A DNA stretch of 36,981 bases from Bacteroidia bacterium. Its GTDB lineage: Bacteria; Bacteroidota; Bacteroidia; B-17B0; Aurantibacillaceae. Below are positions 33,819-36,981 of the stretch, piece by piece. Within the stretch, counting starts at the first letter, position 1, and every line of letters begins with the position of its first letter. The notes beneath the pieces are model-generated. The model ran no database searches. It was not told the DNA's origin and saw only the letters and a list, made by a program, of their open reading frames with translations. Position numbers and translations under genes: made by a program. The stretch spans positions 1 to 36,981 of the forward strand of contig JANYIQ010000260.1 of the NCBI GenBank assembly GCA_025362575.1, written 5' to 3'.

Positions 33819-34093
33819 TTACTTGCTGTTTTTAATCACCATTTTTTCCAACCGCATTTGACCTATTTCAATTTTTGAAATCTCGTTCAAAAGCAATTCA
33901 CCATTCTTTGCAACATAATATTCTCTTCCATATTCTTCAACCCACTTTGTTTGATAATGTTCAGCCCTTTCCTGCCCGTAATCTTTTATAGCAGTGATAT
34001 TTATTTTTCTTTGTTTTCTTGCAACAATAAATAAAACGCAATTGAAAATAGCACGGTAACTATACCTGCTAATATTGGGATAAATTCTTTCAT
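33819..34093 (-). pseudogene. Small single-pass membrane protein gene with a frameshift in an A-run
   Basis: The minus strand starts at an ATG (34093), encodes M-K-E-F-I-P-I-L-A-G and one membrane helix, and stops after 30 residues at 34001. The -1 frame stays open to 33819 with a coding-like hydrophilic sequence (I-N-I-T-A-I-K-D-Y-G ... E-E-Y-G-R-E-Y-Y-V-A-K). One extra A in the A5 run at 34004-34008 would join both into a 91-residue protein. It is either a decayed gene, a sequencing indel, or a programmed -1 slip at the A-run before TAA. It starts four bases after the 60-residue membrane protein gene. No known family was recognised. Confidence 0.55.
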
Positions 34094-34097
34094 AGTA

Positions 34098-34280
34098 TTA
34101 TTTGTTATTTTTAATAATGAGTTTTAAATAAATTCCAAAAGCTAATATTGAAGGGACCCAAATTCCAACAAAAATGGCGGAGTCTGTATCTCCCTTAAAA
34201 TAAAGTGTTTCGGAATACACAAGCGATAAAAACGTAATACCTAATAGTATTTTGTCGGCAGTAGTGATTTTTTTTAACAT
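34098..34280 (-). CDS. Small two-helix membrane protein
   Basis: A 60-residue protein with two hydrophobic helices (about 10-26 and 35-55) separated by F-K-G-D-T-D-S-A-I-F-V-G-I-W. It has a Lys-rich N-terminus (M-L-K-K) and C-terminus (I-I-K-N-N-K). It is the first gene of a minus-strand pair with the frameshifted 91-codon gene. Its start lies seven bases from the nearest box of the double inverted repeat at 34287-34362, and a good TTTG-N20-TACATTTG promoter reads into it. Function unknown. Confidence 0.65.
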   Translation of the reverse strand: MLKKITTADKILLGITFLSLVYSETLYFKGDTDSAIFVGIWVPSILAFGIYLKLIIKNNK

Positions 34281-34286
34281 AATTTA

Positions 34287-34362
34287 TTGTTTAAGGTTTT
34301 TAGTAAAATATTAAACAAATGTAATACTTTTTGTTTAACTTTACAAAAAATATGTTAAACAA
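34287..34362. promoter_or_regulatory. Double inverted-repeat operator, two units of TTGTTTAA-N16-TTAAACAA
   Basis: Four boxes are placed with exact geometry: TTGTTTAA at 34287-34294, TTAAACAA at 34311-34318, TTGTTTAA at 34331-34338 and TTAAACAA at 34355-34362. Boxes 1-2 and 3-4 form identical inverted repeats with 16-base spacers, 44 bases apart (about four DNA turns); boxes 2-3 form the reverse arrangement with a 12-base spacer. A weaker TTAAATCA follows at 34373. The array lies between two divergent gene groups and overlaps the minus-strand promoter, as expected for a repressor or light/stress regulator. The regulator is not in the window. Confidence 0.65.
34316..34347 (-). promoter_or_regulatory. 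Promoter TTTG-N20-TACATTTG for the small membrane protein operon
   Basis: On the minus strand TTTG (34347-34344) and TACATTTG (34323-34316) are separated by 20 bases, fitting the Bacteroidota -33/-7 consensus. The start codon lies 35 bases downstream. The -7 box overlaps box 2 of the inverted-repeat array and the -33 lies in the spacer of unit 2. Confidence 0.65.
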
Positions 34363-34509
34363 AATAAATATGTTAAATCACGCATAATCAACCCAATTGA
34401 TAAAAAGTGAAATAAATACAGTTTGGAATTTTATGAGTTCACCTAAAAATAAGGAAGTCTTTGATTGCCGGTTTAGAGTAGTAAAAAAAATATCTAATTC
34501 TTAGTAGAA
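34363..34509. other. Spacer upstream of the TIGR03643 gene
   Basis: About 150 A/T-rich bases. A near-consensus promoter TTG (34397-34399) with TACAGTTTG (34417-34425) would read right, with one extra base in the -7 box. A 23-codon ORF (34433-34504) ends five bases before the next start and could be a leader peptide; evidence is weak. Confidence 0.3.
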
Positions 34510-34869
34510 ATGCCAGAGCCTAATTTAAATTATTGTTATTACTCCGACTTGCCTTCGCCAATGGCCTATATGCCAAAAGAAGAAAACACCACTATTAAAA
34601 CGCTAACTCCATTTGATATAGACAGGATTATTGAAATGGCTTGGGAAGATAGAACTCCTTTTGATGCGATTTATGAGCAATTTCATTTAAAAGAAGATAA
34701 GGTAAAAGAATTAATGAAAAAAAATTTAAAATTTTCGAGTTACAAACGTTGGCGAATAAGAGTAGAAAATTGCAATACTAAACATGTAAAACTTCGTGTA
34801 GACGCAATCAATCGCTTTAAATGTAATTTACAACGAACAATCACTAAAAATAAAATTTCTAAAAGATAA
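34510..34869 (+). CDS. TIGR03643 family protein
   Basis: A 119-residue basic protein. The core D-I-D-R-I-I-E-M-A-W-E-D-R-T-P-F-D-A-I, then K-V-K-E-L-M-K-K-N-L-K-F-S-S-Y-K-R-W-R-I-R-V and a C-terminal T-K-H match the TIGR03643 family, a short helix-turn-helix-like protein of unknown function often found near photolyase genes. The start is uncertain; internal ATGs at 34561 and 34570 also precede the core. It opens the plus-strand cluster and lies five bases ahead of the SDR gene. Confidence 0.85.
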   Translation: MPEPNLNYCYYSDLPSPMAYMPKEENTTIKTLTPFDIDRIIEMAWEDRTPFDAIYEQFHLKEDKVKELMKKNLKFSSYKRWRIRVENCNTKHVKLRVDAINRFKCNLQRTITKNKISKR

Positions 34870-34874
34870 ACAGT

Positions 34875-35564
34875 ATGCAAAAAACATTTTTATTTGCAGG
34901 TGCATCAAGTGCTATCGCCCTAGCAACAGCTTTACAATTAAAACAACAGGGGCACAAAATAATTGGCATCTCTACTAAACAAACCATTGATGTATATGAT
35001 GAGTTCATTACCATCGAAAAATACGAATCTCCTTATTTTCCTCTATTAAATGAGAAAATCGATGGCTTGGTTTATTTTCCGGGAACAATTAACCTAAAAC
35101 CATTTCATCGTTTAACCAGCCAAGAATTTATAACAGATTACGAAATAAATGCCTTAGGTGCTGTTAAGGTTACTCAACATTATTTATCATTACTCAAAAA
35201 GAGCGAACAAGCAAGCATTGTATATTTTAGCTCAATAGCTGCCCAACAAGGTATGCCGTTTCATACTTCTATTGCAATGGCAAAATCGGCAATTGAAGGT
35301 TTAACAAAATCATTAGCAGCCGAATTAGCACCAAACATAAGAGTAAACTGTATTGCTCCTTCATTAACTAAAACGCCTTTAGCAGATAAGTTTACAAACA
35401 CTCTTGAGAAAATAGAAGCATCAGAAAAACGACATCCACTTAAAAAAATAGGAACGCCCAATGGCATTGCAAACGCACTGATTTTTCTATTATCCGAGCA
35501 ATCATCTTGGATAACCGGTCAGGTATTAGCTATTGATGGAGGAATGAGTACCCTAAAATTATAA
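34875..35564 (+). CDS. Short-chain dehydrogenase/reductase-like protein lacking the catalytic Tyr
   Basis: A 229-residue Rossmann protein. The N-terminal cofactor loop is A-G-A-S-S-A-I-A, the Ser of the active site is in Y-F-S-S-I-A-A, and the C-terminal R-V-N-C-I-A-P-S-L and W-I-T-G-Q-V-L-A-I-D-G-G are typical SDR. In the Y-x3-K position the sequence is I-A-M-A-K, so the catalytic Tyr is Ile while the Lys is kept. Oxidoreductase activity by the usual mechanism is doubtful. I recall similar Tyr-less SDRs in photolyase-linked clusters. It is two bases ahead of the flavin reductase gene. Confidence 0.88.
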   Translation: MQKTFLFAGASSAIALATALQLKQQGHKIIGISTKQTIDVYDEFITIEKYESPYFPLLNEKIDGLVYFPGTINLKPFHRLTSQEFITDYEINALGAVKVTQHYLSLLKKSEQASIVYFSSIAAQQGMPFHTSIAMAKSAIEGLTKSLAAELAPNIRVNCIAPSLTKTPLADKFTNTLEKIEASEKRHPLKKIGTPNGIANALIFLLSEQSSWITGQVLAIDGGMSTLKL

Positions 35565-35566
35565 AT

Positions 35567-36223
35567 ATGGAAACAACTAAAATAAATTTAAACAACATTT
35601 TAAAGTTTGAACAACGTTACCGAGCAACATTTATTAATTCGTTAGGAGGCTTTAAAATGCCTGTTTTAATAGGCACTTGTGATAATCAATGTAACGCAAA
35701 CCTCGCTATTTTTAATTCGCTAATTCACATTGGTGCAACTCCCCCTTCAGTTGGGTTTATTGTAAGACCTGACTCAGTAGATAGACATACCTTACAAAAT
35801 ATTTTAGAAACGAAATTGTTTTCTATCAATCATATTAAAGAAGAGTTTTATAAAAAAGCGCATCAAACATCTGCTCGATATAGCAAAGAACAAAACGAGT
35901 TTAATGAAGTGGGTTTAACGGCAGAATATCATGATGGTTTTATAGCACCATTTGTAAAAGAAAGCTCCGTTAAAATTGCTTTAGAGTTTAAACAAAAAAT
36001 ACATATTGGAATTAACGGAACAATATTGATCATAGGGCAAATAAAGTCAGTAATGGTTCCAACAGATTGGATTAATCAAGATGGATTTGTTGATTTGAAA
36101 AAAGCAGAAAGTATTGCTTCAGTTGGTCTTAATGCGTATTATAATGTAATGCCTATTGCTCGCTTAACTTATGCAAAACCTAATAAAGAAATTGTAGAAC
36201 TAAAATCAAATTTAATTGATTAA
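35567..36223 (+). CDS. Flavin reductase family protein (FMN-binding split barrel)
   Basis: A 218-residue protein with the split-barrel start M-P-V-L-I-G-T-C-D-x-Q-C-N-A-N-L-A, then [10 protein letters not shown] and the helix-turn S-I-N-H-I-K-E-E-F, an order typical of the flavin reductase/FMN-binding family. It may supply reduced flavin or bind FMN for a neighbouring light- or redox-dependent step. The gene starts two bases after the SDR stop. Its last codons overlap the in-frame start region of the photolyase remnant. Confidence 0.87.
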
Positions 36224-36377: not shown

Positions 36378-36981
36378 ATGAATTTATTTTTAAAAGCATC
36401 TTGGCAGCAAATAATCATGGTAAACTACTCAGTTTCGCCAAATGTGCTTATACCCTTTTTACCAAAGGGTGTTGAACTAGATTTTTATAACGATAAAGTT
36501 TATGTGAGCTTAGTTGGATTTATCTTCAAAAACACCAAACTACTTAATATTCCTATTCCATTACTTGGAACATTTGAAGAAGTTAATTTGCGTTTTTATG
36601 TTATCAGAAAAGAAAATGGCATTACAAAAAGAGGTGTTGTATTTATTAATGAAACAGTTCCCTATAAGGCAGTAGCATGGCTTGCCAATAAATTGTATCA
36701 CGAAAGCTATACTTGCGTGCCAACAAAACATAACTGGGAAATTAAAAAAGACATAAAAACTATTCAATATCAATGGCTTTTAAATGATCAATGGCAAAGC
36801 ATTAAAGTGAATGCTTTAAATGACATTAACGCATTGAGAGATGAAACTTTTGAAGAATTTATATTTCAACATTACTATGGCTATGCTAAAGTAGATGAAA
36901 ACACTACTGAAGAATACGAAGTATTGCATCCTAAATGGGAAACTCAAACAGTTTTAGGTTATGAAATTTCATGCGATTTTG
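36378..36981 (+). CDS. DUF2071 (YqjF-like) protein, N-terminal 201 residues
   Basis: An open frame from the ATG at 36378 runs off the right edge. Family marks are S-W-Q-Q-I-I-M-V-N-Y (about 8-17), L-P-K-G-V-E-L-D-F, V-S-L-V-G-F-I-F-K-N-T and F-E-E-V-N-L-R-F-Y-V, then R-G-V-V-F-I-N-E, all typical of DUF2071/YqjF. The function is unknown; the family recurs in photolyase-linked and ChrR-type stress clusters. It follows the photolyase remnant by six bases. Confidence 0.88.
   Translation, partial: MNLFLKASWQQIIMVNYSVSPNVLIPFLPKGVELDFYNDKVYVSLVGFIFKNTKLLNIPIPLLGTFEEVNLRFYVIRKENGITKRGVVFINETVPYKAVAWLANKLYHESYTCVPTKHNWEIKKDIKTIQYQWLLNDQWQSIKVNALNDINALRDETFEEFIFQHYYGYAKVDENTTEEYEVLHPKWETQTVLGYEISCDF

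Follow-up and report, generated by a model that had tools for sequence, protein, structure and literature searches.

The window considered here, the whole 36,981-nucleotide stretch of contig JANYIQ010000260.1 (Bacteroidia bacterium, assembly GCA_025362575.1), holds near its right end two gene groups that diverge from a short region of repeated boxes. The features of this region are as follows.

34001..34093, minus strand: 30-aa hydrophobic open reading frame (MKEFIPILAGIVTVLFSIAFYLLLQENKEK) downstream of the 60-aa gene, from its translation only
34098..34280, minus strand: 60-aa predicted membrane protein, a conserved orphan without Pfam or NCBIfam match
34287..34318, no strand: unit 1 of the proposed operator, TTGTTTAA-N16-TTAAACAA, boxes exact and conserved class-wide
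34316..34347, minus strand: Bacteroidota-type promoter TTTG-N20-TACATTTG, recognised by eye and by the enrichment of TAnnTTTG beside units
34331..34362, no strand: unit 2 of the proposed operator, TTGTTTAA-N16-TTAAACAA, boxes exact, 44 bp from unit 1
34365..34372, plus strand: weak candidate for a rightward -7 element, TAAATATG, found by eye and differing from TAnnTTTG at one position
34370..34501, plus strand: remnant of an SRPBCC-family gene between the proposed operator and the TIGR03643 gene, from tblastn and blastn
34510..34869, plus strand: TIGR03643/DUF2805 protein, by family match
34875..35564, plus strand: short-chain dehydrogenase (SDR), by family match
35567..36223, plus strand: flavin reductase-like protein, by family match
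36378..36980, plus strand: DUF2071 protein, incomplete at the window end, by family match

The first-pass annotation had described four exact boxes, arranged as two identical inverted repeats around a divergent promoter. The boxes stand as described, their starts following one another at 24, 20 and 24 bp and the second unit being offset from the first by 44 bp, and they do lie between small membrane-protein reading frames on the left and the TIGR03643/DUF2805, SDR, flavin reductase and DUF2071 genes on the right. The embedded TTTG-N20-TACATTTG promoter is also present, but its divergent character holds only in part. It lies on the minus strand, with the -33 TTTG at 34347-34344 and the -7 TACATTTG at 34323-34316, and faces the 60-aa membrane-protein gene on the left (34280-34098) rather than TIGR03643. 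Unit 1 (34287-34318) overlaps both the region where the leftward gene starts and the -7 of this promoter, while unit 2 (34331-34362) covers its -33 region and spacer. For the rightward genes the only promoter element is the imperfect -7 TAAATATG just past unit 2; a rightward promoter is likely to exist, weaker than the leftward one.

The 60-aa membrane protein occurs in 11 of 87 genomes of the family, where its relatives share 55–68% identity and in several cases adjoin TIGR03643 or LitR genes. We considered whether this gene is generally preceded by the operator and rejected the idea, as this is so only at its own locus, at L136/L121, where the site is shared with PTPS, and at L224, where the site has one mismatch. 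On the other side, the SRPBCC remnant retains N- and C-terminal pieces and a stop codon and has lost its middle; the N-terminal piece is clear (tblastn E 4e-9, 28/32 identical by blastn) and the C-terminal piece matches more weakly (E 0.002–0.006). Contig C66 of this genome carries an intact SRPBCC copy. Since only a remnant is left in the window, the operator has outlived the gene it once preceded.

To judge the motif, we counted it against its reversed form in the same genomes. The 4.3-Mb genome to which the window belongs contains three exact copies and none of the control. Within the family, 55 of 87 genomes carry the motif, with 102 exact copies in total compared with two of the control, which bears out the earlier view that the boxes are not an accident of A/T richness; among 396 Bacteroidia genomes the motif occurs in 166 and the control in 8. 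Looser matching is uninformative: the window alone has four matches at three mismatches where 1.8 are expected, which is not unusual, and at up to three mismatches the genome gives 187 motif and 252 control matches, so that the signal is gone. Because the three-mismatch signal drowns in noise, further counts were restricted to exact or one-mismatch sites, except that second units beside an exact site were sought at up to three mismatches, with control. Two one-mismatch sites in the genome, beside a ComEC-like gene (C83:6545) and inside a coding frame (C95:7549), were taken as chance.

A candidate regulator is suggested by the other copies in the same genome. The third exact copy sits between folE-PTPS-MerR (LitR) genes and SRPBCC-TspO-kinase genes, and a one-mismatch copy lies immediately 5' of litR itself. 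The LitR protein, 291 aa and encoded on C66, has an N-terminal MerR winged helix-turn-helix (PF13411, 1e-16), a B12-binding_2 four-helix domain above the Pfam cut-off (PF02607) and a Rossmann B12-binding domain that scores below it (PF02310). Its best PDB match by sequence is Thermus thermophilus CarH, and its predicted fold also matches this protein best (5c8d/5c8e), with a TM score of about 0.6 over the full length and about 0.85 (target-normalised) over the B12 domain.

The first-pass annotation had suggested looking for a co-occurring regulator of MerR/LitR type, and litR, besides having a copy in front of it, tracks the motif across the family. With LitR presence called at E below 1e-30, the exact motif is found in 54 of 59 genomes with LitR and in 1 of 28 without (Fisher p=2e-16); five LitR genomes thus have no exact site, and the single motif-bearing genome without LitR has it in a context unlike the others. 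An independent test used 80 LitR loci that were chosen by protein similarity alone from named genomes, among them Algoriphagus, Pontibacter and Marivirga; 54 of these loci bear a unit with no more than one mismatch. Varying the spacer from 0 to 40 around them gave 74 matches at this stringency for a spacer of 16, six for 17 and zero to four for every other, against none at 16 for the reversed control. MliR, a MerR-type iron regulator in Bizionia, was also checked and shows no link to B12 or the motif.

The architecture of the units recurs as well. Column statistics over 72 sites reveal a symmetrical extension, TTGTTTAAY, and A/T-only tracts that face inward in the N16 (positions 11–14 and 19–22); an inner 11-bp repeat in the N16 was sought in the same statistics and not found. 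A second unit near one of the 111 distinct exact sites is almost always 41–45 or 61–64 bp from it; other distances have isolated cases and the control is nearly empty. The 44 bp of the window falls in the first of these classes. Both distances are close to what would be four and six turns of B-DNA. TAnnTTTG occurs 0–12 bp downstream of a unit 33 times where 2.8 are expected, and further such elements overlap the units themselves. Together with the position of the units in the window, this enrichment matches the overlap with -35 or -10 elements of light-induced promoters that is typical of CarH-type operators; induction by light would be predicted here as well.

The genes beside the motif point in the same direction. 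Among 30 family loci picked by the motif only, 25 border light-regulon genes, a distribution at odds with the random A/T-rich positions that would have spoken against an operator. In 18 of them the unit precedes an ECF sigma factor gene, mostly with photolyase adjoining and lysS on the other side, and in seven it accompanies litR, folE/PTPS, crtI, SRPBCC or TIGR03643. The order LitR, doubled operator, ECF sigma, crtI, crtB (the last recognised by eye from sequence) is found in several other Bacteroidia. Conservation upstream of orthologous clusters, which the first-pass annotation had expected of a real operator, is seen at 18 of 30 TIGR03643 loci, the present genome included, where a unit with at most one mismatch lies within 1.1 kb upstream; the other 12 lack a near-exact unit. 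The unit is often about 520–550 bp upstream of TIGR03643, with an SRPBCC gene in between. In the present genome, no unit was found at the photolyase gene, no phytoene synthase family gene was detectable, and the search for a close orthologue of the ECF sigma factor returned nothing above 32% identity. LitR and perfect operators are kept despite these absences, owing to which the light regulon of this organism, if functional, is a reduced one.

From the sequence evidence we propose, with a probability of about 0.85, that the two units form a tandem operator of the CarH/LitR-type MerR repressor encoded on C66, bound in the dark and released in the light. In the dark, LitR carrying adenosylcobalamin as its chromophore would physically occupy both units, masking the leftward promoter at its -33 and -7 elements as well as the region where the rightward genes start. 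Because both units face almost the same side of the helix, binding would probably be cooperative. Light would then break the cobalt-carbon bond and cause LitR to let go of the operator, allowing expression of the 60-aa membrane protein and, more tentatively, of the TIGR03643-SDR-flavin reductase-DUF2071 genes, together with folE, PTPS, SRPBCC, TspO and litR. We propose dark binding and light release because the units sit on the core promoter, as would suit repression by occlusion, a mode shown for CarH, CarA and Pseudomonas LitR (PMC9758184, PMC9304148, PMC8156234). Against the proposal stand the five LitR genomes without an exact site, the 12 TIGR03643 loci lacking a near-exact unit, the absence of a unit at this genome's photolyase gene, and half-sites that are inverted where known CarH operators have direct repeats.

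It is conceivable, though unlikely, that LitR reads the boxes independently of B12 and is relieved by another light sensor or an anti-repressor. Such members of the family exist, namely Myxococcus CarA with CarS and the Pseudomonas class II LitR with a LOV protein (PMC9758184, PMC9304148). Dependence on B12 is in fact not certain here, because the B12-binding domain scores below the Pfam cut-off and because these LitR proteins have not kept H132, the upper-ligand His that T. thermophilus CarH has after its Trp. Against this, Wx9EH, which has been used to tell CarH from CarA (PMC9304148), is present in this LitR and in 29 of 30 homologues, and the ExH of the lower cobalt ligand motif is found in 29 of 29 full-length homologues. 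Of the full D/ExHxxG motif, the protein encoded here keeps ExH but has Ser at the last position, so that its match to the B12-binding Rossmann domain is ambiguous.

Another factor that shares the light regulon, such as a TetR-, CRP- or Rrf2-like protein, might instead own the boxes, and we hold this to be very unlikely. In its favour, MerR operators usually have closer half-sites; nevertheless, the strict co-occurrence of motif and LitR, the unit directly before litR and the CarH-like half-site speak for LitR itself. Less credence still is due to the idea that the boxes are promoter elements of the clusters' ECF sigma factor rather than a repressor operator. The frequency with which units precede an ECF gene and adjoin -7-like elements would suit it, yet the boxes are perfect in the present genome without a close sigma orthologue, sites also occur in clusters without an ECF gene (L025, L026, L118, L127), and symmetry with a fixed spacer fits a dimeric DNA-binding protein. 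Chance palindromes within A/T-rich intergenic DNA, for which the abundance of loose matches might be cited, can practically be dismissed given a roughly fifty-fold excess of exact matches over the reversed control in the family and an enrichment at spacer 16 only.

Returning to LitR as the regulator, how does its proposed operator compare with known ones? The annotator of the first pass knew of no operator with this geometry, and we likewise found no report of such an arrangement, nor any description of the motif or of a Bacteroidota LitR operator, in a literature search that covered mainly open-access papers. CarH recognises the half-site TnnACA, and its operators in T. thermophilus and Bacillus megaterium are tandem 11-bp direct repeats, nnnnTnnACAn (PMC9304148), not inverted pairs (PMC9304148, PMC8156234). 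The box TTAAACAA contains TnnACA as defined by that consensus (PMC9304148), and the Bacteroidia system further resembles CarH in that its regulator belongs to the same family with the domains in the same order, in promoter overlap and in its carotenoid and light genes. Unlike in CarH operators, the half-sites are inverted and 24 bp apart around an A/T-only inner tract, the units are paired at about four or six helical turns, and over the 72 sites there are no three or four tandem 11-bp direct repeats, nor any second TnnACA at 11 bp. The regulator fits CarH/LitR in all sequence features tested except the Rossmann B12-binding domain, where the match is ambiguous, and the operator is best called CarH-operator-like in its presumed working but lacking a defining trait, the direct 11-bp repeats.

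Similarities to other family members are also evident. The sites of Pseudomonas class II LitR (PplR1, PmlR2) read T(G/A)TACA-N12-TGTA(C/T)A (PMC9758184); as here, there are two per promoter, at -35 and near the start, and the targets also include folE, photolyase and LitR itself. The TGTACA-N12-TGTACA pattern was not found at the Bacteroidia sites, where box and spacer differ (TTGTTTAA/TTAAACAA and spacer 16 as opposed to TGTACA and spacer 12), and both B12 domains are predicted in the Bacteroidia regulator whereas the Pseudomonas protein lacks the second. The Myxococcus CarA operator likewise has inverted elements, located at -35, and works by promoter occlusion, with two dimers binding cooperatively over about 55 bp, as we propose here; its sequence is different, however, and CarA is restricted to Cystobacterineae and lacks the Trp of Wx9EH. 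In Chryseobacterium lacus, also a member of Bacteroidota, carotenoid genes are light-induced and a regulator gene beside crtB was suspected to be CarA/LitR-like (PMC7064467), a study that gave no operator or mechanism.

A broader generalisation, to which we give about even odds, is that CarH/LitR proteins of Bacteroidia bind inverted half-sites, 24 bp apart, as dimers with two-fold symmetry, that pairs of these dimers are locked at four or six helical turns, and that the light regulon they govern throughout the class takes in uncharacterised families (TIGR03643, DUF4397 and the 60-aa membrane protein); such DNA reading would set them apart from the solved CarH complexes. If a CarH-like protein does bind this inverted geometry, the family would have at least one more assembly mode beyond the direct-repeat mode of the T. 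thermophilus crystal structure. With the motif as a query, light control could also be searched for across much of the Bacteroidia and the regulons of many genomes read off their sequence, and motif-bearing families of unknown function would gain a testable role.

Copies of the operator were also seen before or near genes for secreted proteins at eight loci in several genomes (L022, L029, L122, L125, L130, L131, L132, L181). The protein at L022 was tested and is a DUF4397 protein, and those at the other seven are look-alikes; secreted proteins behind the operator would belong to the light regulon. In one family genome, a SpoIIE-type phosphatase gene (L024, 594-1547, minus strand) has a unit close to its start.
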